Assembly: GCA_000752215.1 (NCBI GenBank)
Contig: CCFG01000017.1
Span: 558,001-622,000, forward strand
DNA from: a bacterium MS4
GTDB taxonomy: Bacteria; Bacillota; Clostridia; Oscillospirales; Acutalibacteraceae
Direction: 5' to 3'
DNA: 64,000 nt
Shown here in pieces: positions 12,819 to 26,534 of the stretch (positions are counted from its first letter, which is position 1; each line of letters opens with the position of its first letter). The translations under genes and the position numbers were made by a program. The notes under the pieces were generated by a model. That model ran no database searches. It was given only the letters and a program-made list of their open reading frames with translations, and was not told where the DNA came from.

Positions 12819-13430
12819 TCATAACCGACGGCCCTTGAATTTGGCCCGCAAATCTACTTTTCTTTCCGTTCCGGCTATGATTCTTAGCATAGAATCCCGA
12901 TGAAGAAAAAATACGAGTGCGGTACCGGCTAAACTGACGAGACCCGCCTCCAGCCCAAAATTCAGGAAAGCTGGAATCAGAAACAGGATTGGGATCACCA
13001 GAGCGCCGACTGCCAGATATCCCGTCGCAAGGACGGCACAAAGTCCGGCCAGATTCACGAGCAGTCCCCACAGAGGAGAAAACAGCACAAGATAAGTGCA
13101 GGTTACGGCAACGCTCCTGCCACCCCGAAATTTGTGCCAGAAAGGAAACGCGTGACCGGCGGCGGCGCCCAATCCCGCATAAAGGGTAGCGGACGGCCCC
13201 AGTGACCTGAACAAAAAGCGGCAGAGAACGCATGGCAATACTGTCTTAACAACATCTCCGAGCAGCGTGACAGCGGCACACTTAAACCCAAACTGCTCCA
13301 AAATATTCGCCATGCCCGGATTCCCTGTGCCGATTGCAAAGACGCTTTTGCCCGTTTTACGACGGGCAACGACATCGGCCGTCAGAAAGCAGCCGCAAAG
13401 ATATCCGATGATGATACATATAAATTGCAT
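12819..13430 (-). CDS. plsY: PlsY-like glycerol-3-phosphate acyltransferase
   Basis: 203 residues, the usual PlsY length, with five or so membrane segments. The PlsY motifs are present: the first cytosolic loop with SVFAIGTGNPGMANILEQFG, the GHAFPFWHKFRGGRSVAVT segment with the conserved His and the phosphate-binding FRGGR, and the later GYLAVGALVIPILF region. PlsY moves an acyl group from acyl-phosphate to glycerol-3-phosphate, the first step of phospholipid synthesis. Canonical PlsY has G(S/T)GNxGaTN; here the Thr is replaced (GTGNPGMAN), so this may be a specialised paralogue. It follows the small membrane protein gene by 37 bases and shares the two-component-controlled promoter at 13886-13931. 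Confidence 0.82.
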   Translation of the reverse strand: MQFICIIIGYLCGCFLTADVVARRKTGKSVFAIGTGNPGMANILEQFGFKCAAVTLLGDVVKTVLPCVLCRFLFRSLGPSATLYAGLGAAAGHAFPFWHKFRGGRSVAVTCTYLVLFSPLWGLLVNLAGLCAVLATGYLAVGALVIPILFLIPAFLNFGLEAGLVSLAGTALVFFLHRDSMLRIIAGTERKVDLRAKFKGRRL

Positions 13431-13467: not shown

Positions 13468-13836
13468 TTATTTAATTCCTTTGCAAATGGGGATGAGTGC
13501 CAATAAGATAACAATACCCACAACACCGACGATAATACCTTCGATCATCACTCCCCAGACCATCGTCATGCACATACCAATGCCCAGTGCCAGAGCGCCG
13601 ACTACTCCTATAAATACGGTCAGAACGGTTTTGGCATTCCACCTGATAGGCGCTTTATTTTCCATTTTGCGGCGGACTGCAACCATTATAAGAAGAACCA
13701 TAAGGCCGACCGCACCCATCACTATTCCGGGTTCAAATGCGTTCCATTCGGGAAGCAGGCACAGGCACATGCCGATTGCCAGCAGAATTCCTCCGACGGT
13801 TGACATAACCAGAGTAACGAAATTGCTTCTCTTCAT
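13468..13836 (-). CDS. Small membrane protein with internal duplication
   Basis: 122 residues, start at the ATG at 13836 with GGAGGAA 7 bases upstream; an in-frame ATG at 13851 lies before that ribosome site. About four hydrophobic helices. The two halves resemble each other: AIGMCLCLLPEWNAFEPG followed by IVMGAVGLMVLLIMV, and GIGMCMTMVWGVMIEG followed by IIVGVVGIVILLALI. Function not recognised. First gene after one of the four conserved promoters and directly upstream of the PlsY-like gene, so a role in the membrane with that enzyme is likely. Confidence 0.72.
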   Translation of the reverse strand: MKRSNFVTLVMSTVGGILLAIGMCLCLLPEWNAFEPGIVMGAVGLMVLLIMVAVRRKMENKAPIRWNAKTVLTVFIGVVGALALGIGMCMTMVWGVMIEGIIVGVVGIVILLALIPICKGIK

Positions 13837-13885: not shown

Positions 13886-13931
13886 ATCTTACTTCCCGAA
13901 TGTTTATGATTTGCTTATAAAATGTTTGAGA
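13886..13931 (-). promoter_or_regulatory. Response-regulator-type promoter A (11-bp tandem repeats + -10)
   Basis: Three tandem 11-mers on the plus strand (aatgtttatga, tttgcttataa, aatgtttgaga; 13899-13931) end exactly 7 bases from a -10 box TAAGAT on the minus strand (13886-13891). Direct 11-bp repeats replacing the -35 are the classic layout of OmpR/PhoB-type activated promoters. The same layout recurs at 17086, 19312 and 21173. Confidence 0.75.
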
Positions 13932-13987
13932 AATATTAAAATGTCCCGTCCGTACAAAAATGCGGACGGGGCGTCGATATTTTCATC

Positions 13988-14893
13988 CTACATACGGCGA
14001 AGCTGCCTGTTCGCCCTGATTACCATGCAAACACCGGTCGCAAGCAATATCAGACAGACCGCCGAACCGGTGAGAGCGTTCATGAGTCGCCGGATACTCA
14101 GTTCAGTATCGCTTCCGAAAGAGGCGAACATAGCGGTCTGCAGGGACAGCATGGCAACGAGCGCAGAGGCAAAACTAAAGGTTTTGATGGAGACAAGAAC
14201 AGGGCTGTGTATTTTCCGCGTTCCGGCCATGTAGACAACGGCGCGGGTCAAACAGTAAAAGTCGTACAGGGCCACGGCGAAAACAAGCGTCCCATGATAG
14301 AAGAAGCCCTTTCCCTCGCGGACGATGAGGACGACTACTCCTTGTAATGCCGCAGTCATAACAATAAGCAGCACACCGCTGAGGCGGTAAGCCCTGAACT
14401 CATGACGGCGGCGGTCTCTTTCGTCGCTCAAAGCCGCGAGCCTGCGGTTATTGCGCAAAAGCAGGAATCGTGCGACACACAGAACAGCGTAATAGCCGGC
14501 GAGCACCATCAGCCATGTGGAAACGAAATACCAGCCTGCTGCGGCTTTCATGAGCGCCAGCAGAATATCCGTGACAAGTGTTCCGTAAGTCATGGTGATC
14601 GTGCGAAAGGAATAATCCGCCACGAGCTTAGAGGTGAAGCCCGTCTTCTGCGCCGCGCTGTGCAAGCGCTCTTTCAGCGACGCGCTCTTGACCGCAAGGG
14701 TAATTGACCAAGCCGCAAATGTGAGCGATACGGCGGCGCAAACGTAGACGATAGATACCGCGGCTTCAGGAAGGCCATGGTCATTCTCCCTGGCAACGAT
14801 CAGAAGGGCCGCCGCCGAGAAAACAGCGGCGGCGACGCTAGACGGCACGGCCCTGGGGTAAAAACCGGAGATCCATTTTTTCAGCTTCTTCAC
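13988..14893 (-). CDS. Multispanning membrane protein, function unknown
   Basis: About 301 residues if started at the GTG at 14893, which has GGGAG 10 bases upstream; an ATG at 14932 is also possible (314 residues). Seven or eight hydrophobic segments are visible, starting with VPSSVAAAVFSAAALLIVA, separated by basic loops such as RNNRRLAALSDERDRRRHEFR. No family recognised. It lies downstream of the radical SAM gene on the same strand with a gap of about 115-155 bases and probably belongs to the same unit started by promoter C. GC and codon use match the neighbours. Confidence 0.7.
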   Translation of the reverse strand: MKKLKKWISGFYPRAVPSSVAAAVFSAAALLIVARENDHGLPEAAVSIVYVCAAVSLTFAAWSITLAVKSASLKERLHSAAQKTGFTSKLVADYSFRTITMTYGTLVTDILLALMKAAAGWYFVSTWLMVLAGYYAVLCVARFLLLRNNRRLAALSDERDRRRHEFRAYRLSGVLLIVMTAALQGVVVLIVREGKGFFYHGTLVFAVALYDFYCLTRAVVYMAGTRKIHSPVLVSIKTFSFASALVAMLSLQTAMFASFGSDTELSIRRLMNALTGSAVCLILLATGVCMVIRANRQLRRM

Positions 14894-15047
14894 GGTTTTC
14901 TCACTCCCATTCCTGGATTTATCTTGACACAAAGTGCACGTTCTTTGAGCTGCGGCGTCATGTCGCAGCAGCTGTCCACCATGATTTTACACTTCACGCG
15001 CAGCAGCACCTCAAATCGTTATGATAAAACCTTTCCGCGCGGCAGAA

Positions 15048-16433
15048 TTATGAAAACTTTTCGGCGCTCGCTTTGCATCCTGTGCAGTGCCCGGAGCATT
15101 CCCACAGGTTATCCGCTACGGGCGCCCAATGTTCAGCGGGTGTTTTACACTTTCCGGAAAGGTCAAGCACATTTTCAGGGCTTTCCAGATCGGTGGAACG
15201 AGCGGCGGACATTTCCACCATAGACGCCAGTGCACCGGGGTTATCCAGCAGAGGACAGGGACGCAAGTGGTTTTCATTGAAAGGCTGCCCCTTTCGATAG
15301 GCCATGAACAGGGGCGACCGCAGGGCTTCGAGCAGCGTTTTTTGATGGATATTTGAATCGGAATAATGAATAAACGCACAGGGTTCCATATCGCCGCCCG
15401 CGTTGATGTGGAAGTACCGCCTGCCGCCCGCGATGCATCCGCCGGCATATTCGCCGTCGTTCCAGAAATCCAGAGTAAAGATCGGCTTGGTCTCCCTGAA
15501 TTTCCGCACCTGTTCGTACATAAACTTCCGCTGTTCGGCGCTGACCATCAATTCGGGCACGGCTGCTTCCCCGACGGGCATATATGTAAAGAACCAGCAG
15601 AATTTGGCTCCCCAGTCGATCATCTGGTCGAAGTATCCCTCGGAACCGATCATCTGACAATTCTTGCTCGTGTAACAGCAGGAGATGCCGAAAGGCAGGC
15701 GTTTCGCTTTCAGGAGCGCCATAGCCTTTTCCACCTTTCTGAAAGTCCCTTCTCCGCGGCGGAAGTCGGTATCAGCTTCGAAGCCTTCGACGCTGATGGC
15801 GGGGATGAAGTTTTTAACCCGCAGCATATCGTCGGCAAAAGCCTCATCGATGAGAGTGCCGTTGGTGAAGGCGGTAAACTGGCAGTCGGGATGCGCTTCG
15901 CAAAGACGGATGATGTCCGCTTTCCGCACCAGAGGCTCCCCTCCCGAGTACAGATAGAAATAAGTGCCGAGCTTCGTTCCCTGCCGGATAATGCTGTCGA
16001 GCGTTTCGTAGGACATATTCAGCTTGTTGCCGTATTCAGCCGCCCAACAGCCGGTGCAGTGCAGGTTGCAGGCAGAGGTCGGGTCCATCAGGATCGCCCA
16101 TGGGATGTTGCATCCGTAATCCTCTGAAAGGGCCTCCTGCTTCGGGAAACCGAGCAGTGCAGCATTCAGCACAAAATTGTGAAACGTGGTTTTCAGGATG
16201 TCGTTGTCGATGTCCTTCCAGAGCCTCATGATAAACTGGTACCAGATGTTCTCCGGGTCATCCACAATTTTATGGATCGTTTCTTTCGGCCCGTCCGGGC
16301 CGGAGAAATCCTTTCCCCACCCAATGCGGTCGACCCATTCCAGAAGTTTCGGCAGGTTTTTTCCCGGATCGCCCGAAAGGTAGTTCATAGCCTGGTCCAA
16401 TGCAAAGGACTCCGCTTTTTCTTTTAAATTCAT
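15048..16433 (-). CDS. Radical SAM/SPASM-type enzyme
   Basis: 461 residues. The radical SAM cluster motif CNLHCTGC lies at residues 122-129, followed by a SAM-binding YLYSGGEPL segment and a C-terminal cysteine-rich region (CIAGGRRYFHINAGGDMEPCAF, then CPLL and a final CSGHCTGC) that would bind auxiliary iron-sulfur clusters. An N-terminal helical domain of about 100 residues precedes the barrel. The type is widespread in Clostridia with no settled function in my knowledge. Neighbours are a PlsY-like acyltransferase, membrane proteins and SDR enzymes, which points to lipid chemistry; a radical C-C coupling or chain modification of lipids is possible. Starts after AAGGGGGAA. Confidence 0.85.
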   Translation of the reverse strand: MNLKEKAESFALDQAMNYLSGDPGKNLPKLLEWVDRIGWGKDFSGPDGPKETIHKIVDDPENIWYQFIMRLWKDIDNDILKTTFHNFVLNAALLGFPKQEALSEDYGCNIPWAILMDPTSACNLHCTGCWAAEYGNKLNMSYETLDSIIRQGTKLGTYFYLYSGGEPLVRKADIIRLCEAHPDCQFTAFTNGTLIDEAFADDMLRVKNFIPAISVEGFEADTDFRRGEGTFRKVEKAMALLKAKRLPFGISCCYTSKNCQMIGSEGYFDQMIDWGAKFCWFFTYMPVGEAAVPELMVSAEQRKFMYEQVRKFRETKPIFTLDFWNDGEYAGGCIAGGRRYFHINAGGDMEPCAFIHYSDSNIHQKTLLEALRSPLFMAYRKGQPFNENHLRPCPLLDNPGALASMVEMSAARSTDLESPENVLDLSGKCKTPAEHWAPVADNLWECSGHCTGCKASAEKFS

Positions 16434-16493
16434 AGTTTTATTCCCCCTTGAGTTTTAGTTGAATATTGCGTCATGTTTATTACCCGGAGCTGT

Positions 16494-17030
16494 TCACTTT
16501 GAAAGTAAAGCGTTTGCTTTTTCGCATACTTCATAAATTGCATCATACTGATTATCAATCATCGGGGTTACCTTAGCGGTCTTTTTCCGCTGAATGTTAT
16601 GATAACTAAAATATGGCAGAATCCAGCCGATGAAAGCAGGAATCGCCAGAATAATGCAGAGCGGCAGCATGCCGGCAAGGTAAGCAAACACGGAGCCTGC
16701 CATGAATGCGGTTCCGAAAAGGCCGATGCTGAATGCGGCAATCATTGCTCCGGTGGTCTTGGAGCGCTCCAGAGCATCGATCTCGGCAGCGCAGGATTCA
16801 AACTGACGCTGAAGCCTTGTCAGTTCCGCTTTATTGCGAATTTTGCGATCGCGCTTTAATTTCAGCGTAACGGCGGAAATCCCCTGCTGGGAAGGCGCAG
16901 TCCCATCGAGCTCCCAGCCAAAATTAGCATAACCGTCGGTATATACGGATTCCATGCCGCGGTTAACCGTGACCTCTTTGTACTCATAGCCGATAAAATT
17001 ATTTTCGTTCTTTGTAATCTCAGACATCAT
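16494..17030 (-). CDS. Membrane protein with coiled coil, function unknown
   Basis: 178 residues when started at the ATG at 17030 behind GGAGC; a longer frame start at 17081 overlaps the promoter. The N-terminal part is a small soluble domain (YEYKEVTVNRGMESVYTDGYANFGWEL), then a basic coiled coil (KRDRKIRNKAELTRLQRQFESCAAEIDALE), two adjacent membrane segments and a cytosolic helical tail. No known enzyme motif. It is the first gene behind promoter C and precedes the radical SAM gene by 60 bases, so it is probably a partner of that enzyme. Confidence 0.72.
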   Translation of the reverse strand: MMSEITKNENNFIGYEYKEVTVNRGMESVYTDGYANFGWELDGTAPSQQGISAVTLKLKRDRKIRNKAELTRLQRQFESCAAEIDALERSKTTGAMIAAFSIGLFGTAFMAGSVFAYLAGMLPLCIILAIPAFIGWILPYFSYHNIQRKKTAKVTPMIDNQYDAIYEVCEKANALLSK

Positions 17031-17085
17031 CAACAGCTCCTTTTCTGATTTGTTTTTTAACTGACTCCATCCATTTGACATGCCT

Positions 17086-17120
17086 ATTTTACCTATGGAA
17101 TGTTTGTGAATTTCTTAGAT
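17086..17120 (-). promoter_or_regulatory. Response-regulator-type promoter C
   Basis: Repeat units aatgtttgtga and atttcttagat (17099-17120) lie 7 bases from a -10 box TAAAAT on the minus strand (17086-17091). The repeats overlap the last codons of the SDR epimerase gene. Drives the coiled-coil membrane protein and radical SAM genes. Confidence 0.65.
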
Positions 17121-18116
17121 TTTCCCTTCGCTGCTCAGCCATTTCACGGTATCGGCAATCGTTTGGGAAAACGGCCGTGTGTGGAATCCGAGCTCTTTCT
17201 CCGCCTTCTCGGAAGAAAAGTCATTGTTGCGGATCAAATTGTAGAGTTCAAATTTCAGTGCTTCCATATTTTCTTTGTCTTCAGACCCAACGATACTGCT
17301 CTGCGATGCCTGCATCTGCTCAGGAGTCAGAATCGTCTCCACACGCTTCGCCCCGCTTGCCTCGCTGATCAGATCGAACATCTTTCGCATCGAGACCATC
17401 TCATTGCTCATGATGTATCCCTCGCCCTTCCGGCCTTTTTCCACACAGGCAATTACGCCGTCCGCAAGATCGCGAACATCCACGGAATTGAAGGTACCGT
17501 CCACACCCACGGGCATCTGCCCCTGGCAATATCGGATTAGAAAACTGGCAAACAGTCCGAAAGCGCTGTCGTCCGGACCACATATTCCGGAAGGATAGAC
17601 AATGGAGGCATCCAAGTCCTTGCTACGCACCGCTTCCAGAACATATTGGGTCGCAATCGCTTTTGTTTCTGCATAATAGCCGACTACCTGATCGGGGAAA
17701 AATTCTTCCGGCTCCCGGATGATCCGGCCTTTCGGCGCTTCAAGAATCGCCCCGGTGGAGCTTACATGCACCAGCTTTTTTACGTGATGGGCAACACATA
17801 AGTCAACCACATTTTCTGTTCCCGTGACATTGACATCATAAACTTTTGGGTTGGGCTTTGGAGACGTCGTCACGATGCTTGCGCAATGGATCACGACTGC
17901 ATCGTGGCCTTCAGGTACCGCAAAGAAGGGTTTCAGTGAATTCAGGTCTGTCAGATCCCCAAAACACACCTCCGCCTCTTTCGGAACATATTTGACGGCA
18001 GGATCACCGTTCAGCACCAGCACCCGTACTTTTTTCCCTTGCGAGACCAGTTTGTGGGAAATATTGTTGCCTAAAAATCCTGCTGCGCCTGTTAATAAAT
18101 AGATTGTGTCTTTCAT
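17115..18116 (-). CDS. Extended SDR: NAD-dependent epimerase/dehydratase family protein
   Basis: 333 residues. The N-terminal nucleotide-binding motif TGAAGFLGNNIS and the catalytic YxxxK in GYYAETKAIATQYV are present, with VHVSSTGAI giving the Ser. The overall layout (FGDLTDLNSLKPFF, VTGTENVVDLCVAH) resembles 3-beta-hydroxysteroid dehydrogenase or dihydroflavonol reductase-like proteins, which reduce or oxidise hydroxyl groups on varied small molecules. Located downstream of the second SDR gene. A relic of the C-terminus of a second copy lies at 19215-19283. Substrate unknown; a lipid or polyketide-like ketone would fit the cluster. Confidence 0.82.
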   Translation of the reverse strand: MKDTIYLLTGAAGFLGNNISHKLVSQGKKVRVLVLNGDPAVKYVPKEAEVCFGDLTDLNSLKPFFAVPEGHDAVVIHCASIVTTSPKPNPKVYDVNVTGTENVVDLCVAHHVKKLVHVSSTGAILEAPKGRIIREPEEFFPDQVVGYYAETKAIATQYVLEAVRSKDLDASIVYPSGICGPDDSAFGLFASFLIRYCQGQMPVGVDGTFNSVDVRDLADGVIACVEKGRKGEGYIMSNEMVSMRKMFDLISEASGAKRVETILTPEQMQASQSSIVGSEDKENMEALKFELYNLIRNNDFSSEKAEKELGFHTRPFSQTIADTVKWLSSEGKI

Positions 18117-18225
18117 TTTGAGTTCCTTTCTGTTTCCTGTTTCTAAATTTTATATAATCTGCGGGCGTTGTCACAGCACCCTGAGATCTATCGAGAAAAT
18201 CAGACGATCGTTTCCGGGGATTCCC

Positions 18226-18309
18226 TCGGACAATCAAAGCCGTAAATGCAATACAGATAAAACCTATGATCAGCTTTCCGAATATTGATAGATTATAAAA
18301 CCATTTCAT
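18226..18309 (-). pseudogene. N-terminal remnant of a methyl-accepting chemotaxis protein
   Basis: An ATG at 18309 opens MKWFYNLSIFGKLIIGFI, the characteristic start of clostridial chemoreceptors (cytosolic start plus first membrane helix). Similarity is lost after about 27 residues and the frame runs on into the epimerase gene as out-of-frame sequence. It fills most of the gap between the two SDR genes. This is a broken gene end, suggesting that the SDR genes were joined here by rearrangement. Confidence 0.55.
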
Positions 18310-18356
18310 TTTTATCTCCGCTTATATTTTTTAGTATGTGGGGAGTACAGCGCCAA

Positions 18357-19187
18357 TTACTGGGAGCGTCTCAACGGATTGCAGCCGCTGGCGACGCAGC
18401 CGCCGTCACAAAGGATATCCGTACCGGTCAAATAACCGATACGCTCATCGGCAGCGGCTGCATAGAGCTGAGCGATTTCCTCTGGGTGCCCCAGGCGTTT
18501 GATAGCGTTGTATTTCATATATGTCATCGCCTCGTCCTTTTCCAGCTCGCCCATCGGCGTTTCAAAATTACCGGGCGTAATGGAAAGAACGCGCACGCCC
18601 TTTTGTCCGAACCGGGCGGCATCGGTTTTGGCGAACCAGATCACGAAATTCTTGCTGATTCCGTATGCCACCCCGGCGCGGACCTTTCCGGGAAACAGAT
18701 TGACACGGCGCATCATTTTCTTCATGAATTTGCCGCGGTCGACACGGCTGAGTTTGTAGCTTCGCCTTGGCATAATAAATTTTGGCGTAAGATAAGCGGA
18801 CATGGAAGACGTGTCGATGACACACCCGCCGTCGTGCATCACCTCATAAAAGGCATCGTTGACATTGATGGTGCCGAGTGCATTCGCTTCCATGATCTTC
18901 CGTGCATCGCCCATATGAGGGGACATTCCCGCCGCATGGATCACGATTTTCACCTCGCCCCGCGCAAGCGCCGTCTCTGCTAAGGACTGTGTGCTCCTGC
19001 GGTCGGAGATATCACAGCTAAAGGCTTCGGCTTCGATCTCAGAGGCCCGCAGTTCAGCAACGGCATTTTCGAGTTTCTTTGCAGTGCGGCCTGCCAGAAT
19101 CATGTAGTAGCCCTGACTGCCTATGATTTTGGCGGTGGCAAAACCCATGCCGCTTCCGCCTCCCGTAATAACACACACTTTTTTCAT
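18357..19187 (-). CDS. Classical SDR oxidoreductase with insertion
   Basis: 276 residues. Cofactor motif TGGGSGMGFATA, NAG-equivalent HAAGMSPHMG, catalytic Ser in IDTSSMSAYL and YGISK. Between Ser and Tyr there is an insertion of about 40 basic residues (from TPKFIMPRRSYKLS on), as seen in some hydroxysteroid dehydrogenase-like SDRs. The C-terminal GYLTGTDILCDGGC is typical of the family. Probably an NAD(P)-dependent alcohol/ketone interconversion. It is the first complete gene behind promoter B, and the relic of an epimerase tail upstream is in frame with it but has no start codon. Substrate unknown. Confidence 0.83.
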   Translation of the reverse strand: MKKVCVITGGGSGMGFATAKIIGSQGYYMILAGRTAKKLENAVAELRASEIEAEAFSCDISDRRSTQSLAETALARGEVKIVIHAAGMSPHMGDARKIMEANALGTINVNDAFYEVMHDGGCVIDTSSMSAYLTPKFIMPRRSYKLSRVDRGKFMKKMMRRVNLFPGKVRAGVAYGISKNFVIWFAKTDAARFGQKGVRVLSITPGNFETPMGELEKDEAMTYMKYNAIKRLGHPEEIAQLYAAAADERIGYLTGTDILCDGGCVASGCNPLRRSQ

Positions 19188-19214
19188 GACGCTTTCCTTC
19201 CGATTTGAATTTTC

Positions 19215-19283
19215 ATGTTTCAGCCATTCGATAGTATCCGCGATAGAGTCAGCAAAAGGGCACGTATGAAACCCTCTTAATTC
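19215..19283 (-). pseudogene. Relic of a second epimerase C-terminus
   Basis: Minus-strand codons read ELRGFHTCPFADSIADTIEWLKH, split here as ELRGFHTCPFAD and SIADTIEWLKH; the intact epimerase ends with KELGFHTRPFSQ and TIADTVKWL. The match is close but confined to about 23 residues. The frame has no start codon and runs without a stop into the SDR gene. It indicates an earlier duplication of the epimerase followed by deletion. Confidence 0.6.
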
Positions 19284-19311
19284 CGTTCGCCGTGGTTTAT
19301 TTGACAGGCTT

Positions 19312-19357
19312 ATCTTACTGGAGAAATGTTTATGAATTGCTTACGAAATGTTTGAGA
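19312..19357 (-). promoter_or_regulatory. Response-regulator-type promoter B
   Basis: Three tandem 11-mers (aatgtttatga, attgcttacga, aatgtttgaga; 19325-19357), nearly identical to promoter A, end 7 bases from a -10 box TAAGAT on the minus strand (19312-19317). Drives the SDR genes. Confidence 0.75.
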
Positions 19358-19371
19358 AATATTAAAACAAA

Positions 19372-19402
19372 AAAACAGCCTTCCGAAGTGGAAAGCTGTT
19401 TT
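19372..19402. terminator. Intrinsic terminator after histidine kinase gene
   Basis: Stem AAAACAGC / GCTGTTTT with an inner TTCC / GGAA helix; T-run on the minus strand side. Ends the response regulator-kinase operon and insulates promoter B. Confidence 0.7.
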
Positions 19403-19416
19403 GTATTCATCTTGAA

Positions 19417-20484
19417 TCAATGTGTTTTTAATCTCACCATAAAGGCAGTCCCTTTTCCCGGCTCGCTTTTAGCCGTTATTGCGCCGCCCGACAGTTCGAT
19501 TGCTTTAAGCGTCATGGCAAGCCCAAGGCCGTTGCCTTCCTGCGAATGGGAAGTATCGGCCTGATAGAATTTGTCAAAAATGTGTTCCATGGTTTCCCTG
19601 CTCATGCCGCAGCCGGTATCGGATATTGTGACCGTTACAGTATCCTCATCTGAAGTCTGGGTGAGTGTCACCGTCCCGCCCGAATCTGTGAATTTCAGAG
19701 CATTGGAAAGCAGGTTGTTCCATACGATCTCCATCATGCTTTCATCCGCACGGATCACGGCGCGATCCTCGATATCCGCAATAAATTCAATATCCTTTTG
19801 TTCCCACAAATCTTCAAAAGCGAGAGCGCATTCGCTGAGCTGCCGGCACAGATCGTAAGGCTCGACGGAAGGCTTGATCTCCTGATTTTCCAGCTTGTTG
19901 AGCTTCAGAATATTGGTGACCAGCGCCGTGAGCTTCTGGGACGCCGTAATGATCGTAGCGGTGTATTCCTTGCGCTGCTCAGCCGACAGGTTCTCTTTTT
20001 GAAGCGCCATGGCATAGCTCTGAATCACCGAAAGCGGCGTTTTGATCTCGTGGGACACATTGCCGATAAAATCGTCTTTCAGCGTCTCTATACTTCCCAG
20101 CTCTTCTACCATCTTATTAAAGTCCTCGAACATTACGTCCACATAGTCATGTTTGTCGGCTCTGTGGACCGGCTCCAGGTAGACCGAGAAATCCCCCCCG
20201 GCCACATCTTTTGCCGCCTCACTGATCCTTCGCATTGGCCTGTCAAAGGCGCGGACCTTTTGGCGGGCGGTAACAAGACAAAAAATGGCGGTCACAATCG
20301 CCCAGTATCCAAGCATCCCCCAGATGAATTCCGGCGGCATGCTGCCATAATTCACATATTGATCGTAGATCATCCACTGTCCTGCGGAAAGAGTCAGCAG
20401 CACAAAATAGGTCAGCGCATATTCTTTCCACGTAAAGTGCTTTGCCTTGACCCGGCTGTCATCTTCAACCTGTTTCTTTTTCAA
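19417..20484 (-). CDS. Sensor histidine kinase
   Basis: 355 residues. Two N-terminal membrane helices (YALTYFVLLTLSAGQWMIYD and YWAIVTAIFCLVTA) with a short outside loop, a HAMP-like linker, the phospho-accepting histidine in GNVSHEIKTPLSVIQ, then the ATPase motifs VWNNLLSNALKF (N box), DTGCGMS (G1) and GNGLGLAM (G2). The very short extracellular part suggests membrane or internal sensing. It overlaps the response regulator gene by 4 bases. Together they probably control the promoters with 11-bp repeats around the radical SAM/PlsY cluster. Confidence 0.93.
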   Translation of the reverse strand: MKKKQVEDDSRVKAKHFTWKEYALTYFVLLTLSAGQWMIYDQYVNYGSMPPEFIWGMLGYWAIVTAIFCLVTARQKVRAFDRPMRRISEAAKDVAGGDFSVYLEPVHRADKHDYVDVMFEDFNKMVEELGSIETLKDDFIGNVSHEIKTPLSVIQSYAMALQKENLSAEQRKEYTATIITASQKLTALVTNILKLNKLENQEIKPSVEPYDLCRQLSECALAFEDLWEQKDIEFIADIEDRAVIRADESMMEIVWNNLLSNALKFTDSGGTVTLTQTSDEDTVTVTISDTGCGMSRETMEHIFDKFYQADTSHSQEGNGLGLAMTLKAIELSGGAITAKSEPGKGTAFMVRLKTH

Positions 20485-21152
20485 GACAACACCGCCTTAT
20501 ATCCCAATCCATGCACCGTAACGATTTTGAAATCCTCACAGGAAGAAAATTTGTCTCGCAGCTTTGTGACATACACGTCTACCGCGCGCAGACTGGTGTC
20601 ACTGTCTACGCCCCAGAACTCGTCCATCAACTGCGCACGGGAAAAGGTGTGCTTCGGATAGGAAAGCATTTTATACAGGATATTGAACTCCCGCAAAGTC
20701 ACTGAAATTTCCTCACCGCTGACCTTCACCGTCATTTCGTCCGCATCCATGATAAGGCTTCCCACCGTCAGCTTCTTCTCATTGAAGATATTTGCACGGC
20801 GAAGCAAAGCACCAACCCGAAGAACAAGTTCGTCCATGTTGATGGGTTTTACCATATAATCGTCTACTCCGGCCCCGAAGCCCTTTCGCTTGGAGGACAT
20901 ATCGTCGCGGGCGGTCATAAACAGGATGGGAATCGTTTTATTGATTTCACGTACCGTTTTAGCAAATTCAAAGCCGTCGATTTCGGGCATCATGATGTCA
21001 GAAATAATGAGATCATAAGGATTGTTATACATCAGGTCGTAAGCTTCCCTGGGATTCAGACAGCCTTTGGAGGCATATCCACTGTCGTTCAGGGATGTGC
21101 ACACAATCTGATTAAGTTTGATATCGTCTTCAACTACGAGGATATTAACCAT
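20481..21152 (-). CDS. OmpR-family response regulator
   Basis: 223 residues. Receiver domain with acidic pocket (VVEDD), phosphorylated Asp in DLIISDIMMPEIDGF and the KPI motif (MVKPINMDEL), then a winged-helix DNA-binding domain ending KLRDKFSSCEDFKIVTVHG. OmpR-type proteins bind direct repeats, matching the repeats found at four promoters including its own at 21173-21207. First gene of its operon; starts after a GGGGGGA run. Confidence 0.95.
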   Translation of the reverse strand: MVNILVVEDDIKLNQIVCTSLNDSGYASKGCLNPREAYDLMYNNPYDLIISDIMMPEIDGFEFAKTVREINKTIPILFMTARDDMSSKRKGFGAGVDDYMVKPINMDELVLRVGALLRRANIFNEKKLTVGSLIMDADEMTVKVSGEEISVTLREFNILYKMLSYPKHTFSRAQLMDEFWGVDSDTSLRAVDVYVTKLRDKFSSCEDFKIVTVHGLGYKAVLS

Positions 21153-21172
21153 GAAATCCCCCCTTTTTGTGT

Positions 21173-21207
21173 ATTATACCAGATAATTGTTTAAGAATTG
21201 TTAAAGT
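21173..21207 (-). promoter_or_regulatory. Response-regulator-type promoter D (autoregulation)
   Basis: Two 11-mers, attgtttaaga and attgttaaagt (21186-21207), end 7 bases from a consensus -10 box TATAAT on the minus strand (21173-21178). Same spacing as promoters A, B and C, placed directly upstream of the response regulator gene. The remaining 21208-21505 stretch holds only a terminator. Confidence 0.7.
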
Positions 21208-21505: not shown

Positions 21506-24103
21506 TCAATCGGTGTCATCCCGCAGCGCGTCGATGATGTTCTCTTTTCTGATCTTGCCGACGGCATAGGTCATGGTGACAAAGATGACAAGAAGCACGC
21601 TGAACACGCTGATTCCGATACTGGCCCACGGCAGCACAAACCTGATACCGTCCGCGCCGCCGATGAACATCCCTTTGTAGATCAGCCAGGAGAAGATGAT
21701 TGCCAGGGGAAGCCCGACAAGCAGCGCCCTCACGCCATAAAAGGCACACTCATAACGCATCATTTTATTGAAAGAACGTTCGGACATACCCACGGACTGG
21801 AGCATCGCAAGCTCCCGACGGCGCAGCCGGATGTTCGTGGAAATCGTGTTGAACACATTGGCAACCGCAATCAGCGAAATCATGACGATAAACGTATAGG
21901 CAAACACGTTGGAAATGAAGATATAGTTCCGGTTTTCATCCATCACTTCAGACGTATTCAGAAGCATATACGCGGAGGTAATCCCCGCACCCTGTATCAT
22001 CGTTTTCATTTCAGCAACAGACTGTGACGGGTTCTCAGACTGAAAAGTCAAGCCTTTGACTCTGACATCCACAGAGGCATCGGAGGGGGCAATTTTCTCC
22101 TTCAGAGACCAAGGCGCCATCACCTGAAAGAAGTATGTCTGCTGGTCGGAGACCGCTGTCGTCGGAGGGGCGTCCGGAGATACGACTTCCACACAGGTAA
22201 TGCTCGCGCTTTGCCCATGTCCCCGATTCGGCTCGCCATTTGTTTCGGGAATCAGGGCAGCCTCCACAGAAGATCCCTTGAACATATTACGAAACTCACC
22301 GACTTCTTTTTCACCCTTCTTCTCATTGCTTCCGGTCTTTATTTTAGCAACAGCAATCATTTTTGCGTTTTCCCCGGTATAGTCCTCTGCGGACAGACCC
22401 GCGCTCCTAATGAGGTTCAGATAGGTGCTGTCATCAAGGAATTGAATTTCTATCGGCAGTTCTGCCGTTTTGTCCGGCGAAGATTTCCCTGCGGATTCCC
22501 AGTAATCGTCTGAGAGTTCGTCTGCCTGAACGACACAGGAATACTTCATGACAGCCTGATAGGAGCTTTGGGTAACACCTCCGGCGGTTTTCAGCCGATC
22601 ATAAAGCCTAAGCATTTCGCCATCGTCCATATCCGTCGTTCCAAACCCGATGTCATAAGTGGTAAACGACAATGCCTGTGCCATTGTCTGTTTCAAATCT
22701 GTTACAAAAGCACTGGTCGATATAAACAGCACGACGCTTAAAACAAGTGACAGCACAATACTACGGTAACGTTTTTTGTTCCTCTTGAAATTCTTCAGCG
22801 CAAGAGTCCCCTCCAGACCGCATATGCGCTGCACCAGCTTTGATGTCTCTACGGCTCCCGCTTCCACCTTCACTTCGTTTGTCTGGCGGATACACTCCAT
22901 TACCGGCGTATTGGCGGCTTTTTTTGCCGGGATATAGGCTGAAATCAAAATCGTAACCAGGCTGACCGCCGCTGCACCGGCGAGTGCGAGAACCGACACA
23001 TGCAGGGTCAAAGGAACGCCGGAGTAGAGAATGCTCCCAAAGTTCCCCGCCACAATGAAAATCACAAGCTGAATACCGCCCAAGCCTGCAAGAATGCCGA
23101 TTGGGATGCCGACCGCACCGATGCAGAACCCCTCAAACAGCACCGAATGGCGCAGCTGCTTTGCCGTGGCCCCCACAGAGGCAAGAATCCCGATCTGCCG
23201 TGTACGCTCGTTCAATGAGATACTGAAAGAATTGTGAATCAGAAAGACCGAGCCAATCATAATAATGGCAATTACGATGCCGCCCACTGCGTACAGAAGC
23301 GTGTTAAAAATCTTATCGGATGAATCGAGGCCTATGAAACGCAGCACATCATGATTCAGGATGTAAGCATGGCCCCCCGCCTCATCGCTCGCGTAGGAAT
23401 GAACCCGGCGGGGATTCTTCAGAGTGACAAACAAGCTGAGATCGTCCGCCGTTTCTGAAGTATCCGACATTGTGATCAAGGTATAGCCCGGAGCGGAGTC
23501 CGCCTCAAAAACGGGCGTCCCACAAATACCGACAACCGTATAGGTTTTCTCACCCTGTGATACAAGCGTTTCAGTCCCTGATGTGTATGGATCATTCTGA
23601 CCGAGTTTCTTGTTTCCATTCATGCGGCTTCCCACAGACAGGGAAACCGTATCGCCCACCGCATAGGAAACGCCGCCGTCTGTCGCAGTTTTTCCCGAAA
23701 CAAGAATCTCTCCGCTGTTTTCCGGCAGCCTGCCGGAAAGCAAGGTCACGGGCAAGGCATCAAAGGTTTTCTCGCTGAATCCGGCGATAAAGAGATACGG
23801 TTTACTGAGGTTTTTCCCGCTGTCAAGCGCTGCATAGCCGATGTTTTCGAAGGTTACCGTTTTTGCAGCTTCCTTGTCGCCGGCTCGTTCCTTCACAAAG
23901 GAGGAATCAACATCCAGAAACGCGACGTGCCAATCGCCGTATTTTGCGGCTGCGCCCTCCGCCATATAGTCCAGCAGGGAAACGCCAAAGGTGGCGACCG
24001 CCGTAATCATGGCGGCGGACAGAACAACGCCGATAATTGTTACAAGCGTTCGCGTGTGGTTTTTTCGCAGGCTCTGCAGTGCGATTTTGTTAAAAATATT
24101 CAT
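21506..24103 (-). CDS. FtsX/MacB-type ABC transporter permease
   Basis: 865 residues. N-terminal membrane helix (ALQSLRKNHTRTLVTIIGVVLS), a large extracytoplasmic domain of about 230 residues, a block of three helices with the FtsX signature around SISLNERTRQIGILASVGATAKQL, a second large outside domain, and a C-terminal FtsX block with RLRRRELAMLQSVGMSERSF. This two-fold FtsX layout is seen in mechanotransmission transporters and antimicrobial peptide or lipid exporters of Firmicutes. It overlaps the ATPase gene by 4 bases. Beside a VanS/VanR-like two-component system, a role in envelope stress or peptide resistance is likely. Confidence 0.9.
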   Translation of the reverse strand: MNIFNKIALQSLRKNHTRTLVTIIGVVLSAAMITAVATFGVSLLDYMAEGAAAKYGDWHVAFLDVDSSFVKERAGDKEAAKTVTFENIGYAALDSGKNLSKPYLFIAGFSEKTFDALPVTLLSGRLPENSGEILVSGKTATDGGVSYAVGDTVSLSVGSRMNGNKKLGQNDPYTSGTETLVSQGEKTYTVVGICGTPVFEADSAPGYTLITMSDTSETADDLSLFVTLKNPRRVHSYASDEAGGHAYILNHDVLRFIGLDSSDKIFNTLLYAVGGIVIAIIMIGSVFLIHNSFSISLNERTRQIGILASVGATAKQLRHSVLFEGFCIGAVGIPIGILAGLGGIQLVIFIVAGNFGSILYSGVPLTLHVSVLALAGAAAVSLVTILISAYIPAKKAANTPVMECIRQTNEVKVEAGAVETSKLVQRICGLEGTLALKNFKRNKKRYRSIVLSLVLSVVLFISTSAFVTDLKQTMAQALSFTTYDIGFGTTDMDDGEMLRLYDRLKTAGGVTQSSYQAVMKYSCVVQADELSDDYWESAGKSSPDKTAELPIEIQFLDDSTYLNLIRSAGLSAEDYTGENAKMIAVAKIKTGSNEKKGEKEVGEFRNMFKGSSVEAALIPETNGEPNRGHGQSASITCVEVVSPDAPPTTAVSDQQTYFFQVMAPWSLKEKIAPSDASVDVRVKGLTFQSENPSQSVAEMKTMIQGAGITSAYMLLNTSEVMDENRNYIFISNVFAYTFIVMISLIAVANVFNTISTNIRLRRRELAMLQSVGMSERSFNKMMRYECAFYGVRALLVGLPLAIIFSWLIYKGMFIGGADGIRFVLPWASIGISVFSVLLVIFVTMTYAVGKIRKENIIDALRDDTD

Positions 24104-24789
24104 AACCGTGCCGCCTGCCTCTCATCCCGCACGACTTTTCCGTCTGCGATCGTAATAATACGGTCGGCCTGCAAAGCAATGTTTTCATCGTGGGTGACGA
24201 GCAGCAGGGTCTGCCCATATTTTTGATTGCTTTCTTTCAGCAGCTTGATGATTTCCTGTCCGTTGCGGCTGTCCAAACTGCCGGTCGGCTCATCGGCCAG
24301 CATGACGGCCGGGGCGTTCATCAACGCGCGGCCGATGGCCACGCGCTGCTGCTGACCGCCCGAAAGCTGATTGGGCAGATGCGTTTTACGGTCCTGCAAC
24401 CCAAGCAGTTCCAGCAGATCGTTCAGCCGTTCCCCGTTGACCTTCCGCTTGTCCATCAGGATCGGCAGAGTGATGTTTTCCACCACATTCAAAGTGGGGA
24501 TGAGGTTGTGGAACTGGTAAATCAGCCCGACCTGCCGCCTGCGGAAGATGGCGAGTTTTTCATTGCTTTGGGCATACACATCCTCCCCGTCCAGATATAC
24601 CTTTCCGCTTGTCGGCACGTCCACACCGGCGATGATGTGAAGCAATGTGGATTTACCGGAGCCGGAGGAACCGATGATTGCGGTAAATTCCCCTTTTTCG
24701 ATGGTAAGCGAAACATGGTCAAGCGCGGTAACCCGATTTTCGTCCTTACCATAGACCTTGCATAGGTTTTCAATTTTCAAAAACTCCAT
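24100..24789 (-). CDS. ABC transporter ATP-binding protein (LolD/BceA type)
   Basis: 229 residues when started at the ATG at 24789, where an AAAGGA stands about 10 bases upstream; an ATG at 24810 would add seven residues. Walker A GSSGSGKSTLLH, signature LSGGQQQRVAIGRAL, Walker B VMLADEPTGSLDS and H-loop VTHDENIALQAD are intact. This subfamily pairs with FtsX-type permeases. The gene is 60 bases after the kinase gene and overlaps the permease. Confidence 0.95.
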   Translation of the reverse strand: MEFLKIENLCKVYGKDENRVTALDHVSLTIEKGEFTAIIGSSGSGKSTLLHIIAGVDVPTSGKVYLDGEDVYAQSNEKLAIFRRRQVGLIYQFHNLIPTLNVVENITLPILMDKRKVNGERLNDLLELLGLQDRKTHLPNQLSGGQQQRVAIGRALMNAPAVMLADEPTGSLDSRNGQEIIKLLKESNQKYGQTLLLVTHDENIALQADRIITIADGKVVRDERQAARL

Positions 24790-24871
24790 TATGTGAGGTT
24801 CCTTTCTCATGTTTTACCCATATAATAGAACTTTCAGCTTACATCTTGGTGACTTTCCGGTGAGAGATTCG

Positions 24872-25861
24872 TCACTTTGGGAAACGAATCGCAAATATTG
24901 CGCCGCCCTGCGGATGATTTTTTGCGGTAATCGTCCCGCCCTGCCGGGTGATAATCATCTTGCAGAGAGCAAGCCCAATCCCGTATCCCGTCGCGCCTGC
25001 ATTCTTCCCGCGATAAAACCGGTGAAACAGGTTGGGTAAATCTTCTTTTTCAAAGCCAGCGCCGTTGTCGCGGACAGCAATCCCGGTAAACAGTAAATTG
25101 TCTTCACAAACAATCTCGATCTTCCCGTTATCGCCTGCGCTTTCCATACAATTTTTGAGGATGTTTTGAATTGCTTCCGAAAGCCAGCCGAAATCGCCCT
25201 GAATGACGATCCCCTTCGGCACGTCCGTTTGCAAGGCAATCCCGTGCAGTTCCATCGGAATCAAAAGCGGGTGAAGTGCAGCGCTTATCAAAGCGTTCAC
25301 ATCGATCTGCCCGCTTTGGAACACCACAATACCCGCGTCCAGGCGCGATAATTTCAACAGGGAGGTAAGCAGCCAATCCATCTGTACAAATAGTCCCTTC
25401 GTTTCCCGTATCAATGCTTTCCGTTCATCTTCGTCAGGGTTATTCTCTAACAACGACAGAATGAGGTTTACGGATGTGAGCGGGGTGCGGAGCTGGTGAG
25501 CGATGTCGGCCAGCGAATCGGCAAGATGTTCTTTTTCTTTTTTCAATGCATCGTTTTGTTCCCGAATACGCAGCGTCATTTTAGTGATCTCGCTTTGCAG
25601 AATGGAAAGTTCCCCCTCATCCGATTCACCGATATACAAATGGTCCGCGTTATGAAGCACGAGATCGATTTGATCTGCGATCTGCGCAATGCTCCGATAT
25701 CGGGCTTTGGTAAACGCGAAAAACACTGCGCCAAAAGCGGCGGCAGATGCAATGGCAAGGATCCCAGCCGCGGTATTGACTGCAAATCCCAGCAGCACGG
25801 CGGCGACAGCTATTAAGGAGAACAAAATAGCAAACTGCCGAAACTCTTTATTCCGAAGCAT
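24872..25861 (-). CDS. Sensor histidine kinase of ABC-associated two-component system
   Basis: 329 residues. Two close N-terminal membrane helices with almost no outside loop, phospho-histidine in DIAHQLRTPLTSVNL, N box AIQNILKNCMESA, G1 DNGAGFEKEDL and G2 TGYGIGLALCKMI. Such loop-poor kinases often sense through a neighbouring ABC transporter. It overlaps the response regulator gene by 14 bases and precedes the ATPase gene. Confidence 0.93.
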   Translation of the reverse strand: MLRNKEFRQFAILFSLIAVAAVLLGFAVNTAAGILAIASAAAFGAVFFAFTKARYRSIAQIADQIDLVLHNADHLYIGESDEGELSILQSEITKMTLRIREQNDALKKEKEHLADSLADIAHQLRTPLTSVNLILSLLENNPDEDERKALIRETKGLFVQMDWLLTSLLKLSRLDAGIVVFQSGQIDVNALISAALHPLLIPMELHGIALQTDVPKGIVIQGDFGWLSEAIQNILKNCMESAGDNGKIEIVCEDNLLFTGIAVRDNGAGFEKEDLPNLFHRFYRGKNAGATGYGIGLALCKMIITRQGGTITAKNHPQGGAIFAIRFPK

Positions 25862-26534
25862 ACCCGTCCCCCAATCGATATCCTGTCCCGCGAACGGTCA
25901 GAATGATTTGCGGGTTTGCCGGGTCGTGCTCGATCTTCTCTCGCAGGCGTTTGATGTACACCGTCAGCGTATTGTCATTGACAAACTCGCCCGCAGCATC
26001 CCACAATTCGTCAAGCAGCCTGTTCCTTGTGATAATCCTTTTGGGATTGTTAAGAAACACCAGCAGCAACCGGTATTCTAAAGCCGAAAGAAAAACCTCG
26101 ACGCCGTCCTTTTTTACAACGCCGCTTGCCGTATCGACATGAAGCCCGGAAAGTTCAAAAGCCGATGGAGAACGTCCGCTTTTTCGCAGGGCGGTGCCAA
26201 TTCGTGCGATCAGTTCACGCGGACGAAAAGGCTTGGTGATATAGTCGTCCGCACCCATGTTCAGCCCGGTAACAACACTCGCCTCATCGTCGGAAGCCGT
26301 CAGAAAAATCACAGGAACATCCTGCGCTTCTTTGATCTCCGTGCAAACCGTAAAGCCATTTCCGTCAGGCAAAGAAATATCGATCAGCGCCAGGTCAAAT
26401 TTATTCCCGGCCAGTGCGGAAAGGGCTTCCCCCCGCGTAGAGGCGTGGGTGACTGTAAACCCCTCCGAGCGGAGCAAAAGTACAAGGTTCTTGGCGATTT
26501 TCTTATCATCCTCAACCAAAAATATCCGTTTCAT
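25848..26534 (-). CDS. OmpR-family response regulator of ABC-associated two-component system
   Basis: 228 residues. Receiver with FLVEDDKKIAK, phospho-Asp in LALIDISLPDGNGF and KPFRPREL, then a winged-helix domain ending VRGTGYRLGDGY. First gene of the regulator-kinase-ATPase-permease set, reading toward the transporter. No copies of the 11-bp repeats of the other system were seen upstream, so it probably recognises a different site. Confidence 0.94.
   Translation of the reverse strand: MKRIFLVEDDKKIAKNLVLLLRSEGFTVTHASTRGEALSALAGNKFDLALIDISLPDGNGFTVCTEIKEAQDVPVIFLTASDDEASVVTGLNMGADDYITKPFRPRELIARIGTALRKSGRSPSAFELSGLHVDTASGVVKKDGVEVFLSALEYRLLLVFLNNPKRIITRNRLLDELWDAAGEFVNDNTLTVYIKRLREKIEHDPANPQIILTVRGTGYRLGDGYASE

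Follow-up and report, generated by a model that had tools for sequence, protein, structure and literature searches.

Putative 11-bp direct-repeat operators of an OmpR-family two-component system and its candidate local regulon in an Acutalibacteraceae bacterium

In the layout described for PhoB, two 11-nt direct repeats, each made up of seven well conserved and four less conserved nucleotides, lie over the −35 region of the promoter (excerpts of PMC4415409 and PMC3348028). For the OmpR-family regulator RR_1586 of Clostridioides difficile, the consensus is a tandem direct repeat of 11 bp, DRTTAAGNWWWDRTTAAGNWWW, and one site lies at the regulator's own operon (excerpt of PMC6222199). In Escherichia coli, the OmpR-family domain of KdpE sits on two AT-rich direct-repeat half-sites of 6 bp, its target being a potassium pump (excerpt of PMC3264566). 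Here we describe four sites, S1 to S4, with 11-bp direct repeats in a 64,000-nt stretch of the genome of bacterium MS4 (Acutalibacteraceae; contig CCFG01000017.1, positions 558,001 to 622,000), referred to below as the window and used for all coordinates. The sites surround a two-component system composed of an OmpR/PhoB-family response regulator (RR, 20481-21152) and its histidine kinase (HK, 19417-20484); sites and genes alike are on the minus strand. S1 to S4 are very probably operators of RR, from whose 11-bp repeats it would activate, in class II fashion, a local regulon of four transcription units.

Anatomy and rarity of the operator sites

Direct reading of the minus strand placed the four sites, their 7-base spacing and their −10 boxes (TAAGAT, TAAAAT, TAAGAT and TATAAT) where an initial annotation, made from the sequence, had put them. 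AAACA(A/T)T-like heptads recur at a pitch of 11 bp, and at all four sites the last heptad is separated from a TA(A/T)(A/G)AT box by exactly 7 bp. S1 (13886-13938) reads TAATATT-TCTC-AAACATT-TTAT-AAGCAAA-TCAT-AAACATT-CGGGAAG-TAAGAT and lies upstream of the genes for a small duplicated membrane protein (SMP) and a PlsY-like acyltransferase. S2 (17086-17116), upstream of a second small membrane protein (CC), a radical S-adenosylmethionine (radical SAM) enzyme (rSAM) and a multi-helix membrane protein (M314), reads AAGAAAT-TCAC-AAACATT-CCATAGG-TAAAAT. S3 (19312-19364), upstream of two short-chain dehydrogenase (SDR) genes, SDRc and SDRe, reads TAATATT-TCTC-AAACATT-TCGT-AAGCAAT-TCAT-AAACATT-TCTCCAG-TAAGAT. 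S4 (21173-21203) reads TAACAAT-TCTT-AAACAAT-TATCTGG-TATAAT and is the promoter of the RR-HK operon, as the initial annotation had recognized in placing one site before the regulator gene; we propose that it serves autoregulation. The repeats had also been called identical, which was not borne out, since the units are ordered and differ from one another: S1 and S3 share the order TAATATT, AAACATT, AAGCAAA (S1) or AAGCAAT (S3), AAACATT. A count of two or three units per site had been given; two is correct for S2 and S4, and S1 and S3 have four. None of the four sites appeared among the canonical −35/−10 matches listed for the region, and no canonical −35 box is present at any of the four promoters.

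For a lone unit with up to two mismatches, the window showed no enrichment (29 occurrences vs 24.9 expected); this count is uninformative, and the signal resides in the tandem arrangement and the spacing. Within the 3.74-Mb genome, the pattern AAACAWT-N7-TAWRAT had five matches, four of them S1 to S4 (reversed pattern: two), and a two-unit pattern in which three mismatches were allowed had four, exclusively S1 to S4 (reversed control: none). Random occurrence of the repeat throughout the genome was a refuting condition named in the initial annotation; the check, when run, returned four sites in 3.74 Mb and so did not refute the regulon. Because both patterns were derived from S1 to S4 themselves, tests with models from other genomes carry more weight. 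The four-unit model R1, built from 43 sites of other genomes and run on the whole genome, recovered S3 (E 3.2e-10), S1 (1.6e-9) and S4 (0.0016), with the next candidate at 0.34 (150 of 1254 first-look candidates scored). Model R2 (31 bp, 30 sites of other genomes) gave its first four ranks in the genome to exactly these four sites, with E values of 0.0019, 0.0027, 0.048 and 0.486, the fourth being that of S2, and the fifth candidate followed at 9.7 (150 of 1297 scored). A target-type submodel (34 sites of other genomes) likewise gave the four sites the first four ranks in the window, at 30.8, 27.8, 27.4 and 25.1, the last being the score of S2; the next score was 12.4, and the best among 60 simulated 64-kb windows was 20.0. 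The cross-genome four-unit model scored S1 at 48.1 and S3 at 50.4, and S4 had the top score, 31.1, under a position weight matrix (PWM) from the RR promoters of other genomes.

Conservation and co-occurrence with the regulator

A relative of RR is encoded in 585 stretches, of which the best 80 (84-66% identity) were kept. Homologues of the cluster genes accompany it to very different degrees: HK in 79 of the 80 loci, CC in 66, M314 in 45, SMP in 38, SDRe in 12, rSAM in 8, SDRc in 3 and the PlsY-like gene in 1. The RR promoter itself scored above a low EM cut-off of 6 in 33 of the 80 loci, 25 of these at 20 or more, and in a few of these the register was offset within a longer ladder. Of 173 regions upstream of the remaining cluster genes, 60 carried a site scoring above 8, as against 7 in the reversed control, and 59 carried one above 15, as against 0. 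Operators preceded homologues of SDRe (9 of 11), M314 (26 of 46, four-unit), SMP (15 of 38), rSAM (3 of 7) and CC (7 of 68), and none of three SDRc homologues; few operators of its own are expected for CC, because it often directly follows HK. That the same genes carry the operator elsewhere supports the proposal of the initial annotation that otherwise separate units are joined into one regulon.

A scan of 81 loci (the 80 and a congener) yielded 137 sites above 18, 133 of them on the RR strand, against 1 in the reversed control. The training set had included 58 of the 137; 76 of the remaining 79 lie on the RR strand. At least one RR-strand site above 18 was found in 69 of the 80 loci. Many genera share both the C of AAACA and the sequence in which the unit types follow one another, and the consensus extends to a weak CATCAAA, beginning six bases after the −10 box, that is likely the transcription start site. 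A strict core regular expression was also tried on the other genomes and abandoned as too narrow (11 and 5 matches on the two strands of the 80 loci, compared with 2 and 1 for the reversed control).

Among 150 genomes of the family, our own included, RR (E ≤ 1e-80) was present in 24 and the operator in 14, and 11 had both (Fisher p 4.7e-8, both searches being assumed to cover the same 150 genomes); operators were called at E ≤ 1e-3 under strict filters, with 38 first-look candidates scored per genome. Operator and RR thus co-occur across family genomes, imperfectly. Within the genus, a high-identity RR occurs in 2 of 11 genomes, both of which carry strong operators (Fisher 0.018); the other nine have no operator below an E of 0.013, and one of them (G010) has an RR homologue of 45% identity. 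Sites located off the contig of RR were found at an SMP gene (L125, L126), beside HK and M314 homologues (L127) and at an unrelated open reading frame (ORF; L128).

Proposed mechanism and alternative explanations

RR, a protein of 223 aa, consists of a receiver and a winged helix (Pfam Response_reg, E 1.4e-25, and Trans_reg_C, 4e-18), and its closest solved chain is that of response regulator D (1kgs, 7.4e-34). Its domains are those of the OmpR/PhoB family, as are the direct repeats at a pitch of about 10-11 bp at its candidate target promoters. Residues 189-201, taken to form the recognition helix as in other members of the family, show conservation of at least 0.86 across 81 orthologues, position 195 excepted. 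RR reached 160 of the 296.2 bits set by the NCBIfam PhoB model, placing it fourteenth of 18 matches in the genome, none of which passes the cut-off and 13 of which score better. VanR models were not reached either (136.2 of 460, 134.1 of 480 and 123.4 of 350 bits). The HK gene overlaps that of RR by 4 bp and encodes HisKA and HATPase_c domains, with a HAMP match under the Pfam cut-off; HK also falls under the NCBIfam PnpS cut-off. Hydropathy gave one strong membrane segment in HK (53-71); judging by eye, we guess at another segment and a short loop on the outside.

As the cognate kinase, HK would phosphorylate RR, which would then bind head-to-tail on the 11-bp direct repeats ending 7 bp before the −10 box and recruit RNA polymerase in place of a −35 contact, in PhoB-like class II activation. 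The two units of S4 may hold one dimer, and the four ordered units of S1 and S3, which would be the strongest target promoters, two dimers. The regulon would comprise four adjacent transcription units with putative limits: RR-HK, SDRc-SDRe, CC-rSAM-M314 and SMP-PlsY.

As a prediction from sequence, this proposal has a number of points against it. Conservation of RR residues 189-205 (mean 0.88) is in slight excess of that of the remaining protein (0.84), and many other OmpR-type regulators are encoded in the genome. R1 fails to find S2; under the RR-promoter PWM this site is weak (14.0, equalled in 8 of 60 simulated windows), and it is singled out solely by the target-type submodel and by R2. 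The layout that seeded the PWMs (11-bp pitch, 7-bp spacer) was taken from the window, leaving only the letters independent, and in the genome and family searches alike a limited number of first-look candidates was scored. No RR-strand site above 18 was found in 11 of the 80 loci. In the family, 13 of the 24 genomes with RR have no operator at E ≤ 0.001 under the strict filters, and 3 of the 126 without RR carry one; in one of the three (G150) HK and CC homologues lie beside the sites, and in the other two (G039, G053) no cluster gene was present in the stretch read.

Alternatively, another OmpR-type protein, for example RR2 (25848-26534) or a chromosomal PhoB/PhoP-like regulator, might bind the repeats and have the local RR as no more than one of its targets. 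The 13 genomic proteins that match the PhoB model better than RR speak for this, as does the frequent binding of direct repeats by OmpR-family proteins (excerpt of PMC6222199). We consider it improbable given the co-occurrence of operator and RR across genomes and the presence of RR2 homologues in 4 of the 80 loci (chosen for RR) as compared with operators in 69; moreover, G010 has an RR2 homologue of 91% identity and an RR homologue of only 45%, and no operator below an E of 0.19 was found there. RR could, on the other hand, bind the sites and mainly repress, in which case weak promoters, or contacts of another kind, would account for the missing −35 boxes. The units end near the −10 box, where bound protein could block the polymerase. 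In PhoB-activated promoters, however, the −35 region is occupied by direct repeats (excerpts of PMC4415409 and PMC3348028), and repression would hardly call for a fixed 7-bp spacing, which makes this alternative very unlikely.

Hardly credible, finally, is an origin of the repeats as phased A-tracts (a UP-element or curvature) or as recently copied promoter DNA rather than operators. The A-rich heptads do recur about once per helical turn, and S1 and S3 do align over 59 bp with 85% identity. Their similarity is nevertheless confined to that block, with no other match within the 400-bp regions compared; the recurrence of the C of AAACA and of the unit order across many genera is not accounted for, and those genomes of the genus that lack a close orthologue of RR have no strong sites. 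Activation by RR from S1 to S4 is the reading adopted below.

Two further observations concern the regulator itself. Three loci (L017, L021, L057) each hold two RR-HK pairs of the same family, their RRs being 57-82% identical to that of the window, which suggests duplicated, possibly diverged circuits. Orthologues of RR were also found outside the Firmicutes, in Treponema saccharophilum (NZ_AP025289.1 5165-5830, 65.8%), a Spirochaetia record (71%) and an Eggerthellaceae record (74%), at loci including L050 and L075, pointing to lateral transfer.

The candidate regulon and its relation to known systems

The member list of the initial annotation was supported in the main; it had omitted M314, the regulon is local, and the inclusion of the PlsY-like gene rests on position and order, namely its start 37 bp after SMP and the SMP-PlsY order in one congener, only one of the 80 loci having shown a homologue. 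Behind S3, SDRc (18357-19187) is a classical short-chain dehydrogenase (Pfam adh_short_C2 / adh_short), and SDRe (17115-18116) is an extended, epimerase or HpnA-like SDR whose stop codon overlaps the first unit of S2. Between S3 and SDRc lies an SDRe-type C-terminal remnant (19212-19307; 16 of 32 aa shared with SDRe in a tblastn search, E 5e-9). CC (16494-17030) has its conserved start at about 17030, not 17081 (alignment of 30 sequences, window included), and is predicted to consist of a small N-terminal beta-alpha-beta domain and two long helices (pLDDT 88.7). The model had no PDB match at E ≤ 0.001; the N-terminus may resemble DUF4177, a family that the Pfam scan did not return. rSAM (15048-16433) is a radical SAM/SPASM-like enzyme (Pfam Radical_SAM 3.1e-16, SPASM just under the cut-off).

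M314 (13988-14932), uncharacterized and with an uncertain start codon, has homologues that precede RR in many loci. Its model gave weak matches to CDF-fold zinc transporters (best E 2.1e-3, TM about 0.5) and none at E ≤ 0.001; we do not claim it as a metal transporter, since in an alignment of 31 sequences neither Asp nor His reaches 70% conservation at any position. SMP (13468-13836; conserved start 13836, alignment of 23 sequences, window included) matched no Pfam family above cut-off. The PlsY-like protein (12819-13430) matched Pfam G3P_acyltransf (4.8e-33) and fell under the NCBIfam PlsY cut-off (96.6 of 137.2 bits).

Downstream ORFs in other genomes were read by eye and annotated in part. 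Operators there also precede DegV-type genes (L042 by Pfam, L055 by resemblance), ABC-type ORFs (L026, L058, L069, L129) and a small protein with YKKIE repeats, found behind 27 sites in 26 of the 80 loci (e.g. L029:2804-3151), many of whose records are titled Lachnospiraceae; the one YKKIE-repeat protein scanned matched no Pfam or NCBIfam family above cut-off.

The congener G009 (RR 89% identical) provides a view of the history of the SDR block. It has a two-unit site before RR-HK and four-unit sites before CC-rSAM and before SMP-PlsY; no SDR or M314 homologue was detected in the stretch read. The four units of S3 differ by one base from its CC operator. Since G009 has a four-unit operator before CC-rSAM and no detected SDR homologue, the SDR block in the window probably separates the ancestral CC operator, now S3, from CC, and the weaker S2 serves CC instead. 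The decayed SDRe-type copy after S3 implies that the block was rearranged. A terminator-like hairpin (19372-19402) follows HK, its T-run abutting and merging into the first unit of S3, and a sequence resembling it also precedes the CC operator in G009 (L094), L014 and L022. On the other side of RR, the region 21506-26534 encodes an ABC-permease/ATPase and a second two-component system that are 62-90% identical to genes of the same locus in Anaerovirgula multivorans, with RR2 91% identical in G010; this block is likely an exchanged island. Its ABC operon (21506-24810) had no operator site in the window and genome scans; in this genome no ABC transporter stands under the operator, as one would in a BceRS/antimicrobial-peptide module.

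Together, the sites and the two-component pair look like a real, well-conserved, widespread and previously unstudied control circuit for membrane-associated proteins. A physiological role in an envelope or membrane-lipid response is a rather doubtful guess, based on the several membrane proteins among the members and on the operators that certain other genomes carry ahead of DegV-type and ABC-transporter genes. Tentatively, the circuit may be an undescribed, horizontally spreading envelope-response system of Firmicutes, in which one two-component pair and the operator code TAATATT/AAACATT/AAGCAAT/AAACATT would drive a kit of uncharacterized membrane and coiled-coil proteins, namely SMP, CC, the YKKIE-repeat protein and one with a CDF-like fold that shows no evident metal ligands, with lineage-specific additions (SDRs, radical SAM, PlsY-like, DegV, or exporters). 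The operator is sharp and testable, for a regulator of many gut and environmental Firmicutes, and it ties SMP, CC, M314 and the YKKIE-repeat protein, none with a Pfam or NCBIfam match above cut-off, into one regulon. Membership in it offers a direct route, via an S1 or S3 reporter, to the signal that induces these families.

Searches of the open-access literature turned up nothing that we recognized as this regulon. KdpE resembles RR in its family and its AT-rich direct repeats and differs, by description only (excerpt of PMC3264566), in its 6-bp half-sites and potassium-pump target. E. coli PhoB with its pho box and the PhoP-type Pho regulons share with this locus an OmpR-family regulator, 11-nt repeats and an activator that covers the −35 region (as excerpted from the PhoB reports above). 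Unlike the CTGTCAT of the pho box, the heptad here is AAACAWT, there are up to four units, RR and HK lie under the PhoB and PnpS cut-offs with 13 other genomic regulators fitting the PhoB model better, and none of the genes behind S1 to S4 is a phosphate gene by Pfam annotation. An assignment to the phosphate regulon was rejected on the PhoB score and rank of RR. RR_1586 is the nearest described clostridial case that we found: like RR, it is a clostridial OmpR-type regulator with 11-bp tandem repeats and a site at its own operon, and it differs in its consensus and in its sporulation and germination targets (excerpt of PMC6222199), the terms 'radical SAM' and 'dehydrogenase' each occurring 0 times in the main text of that paper.

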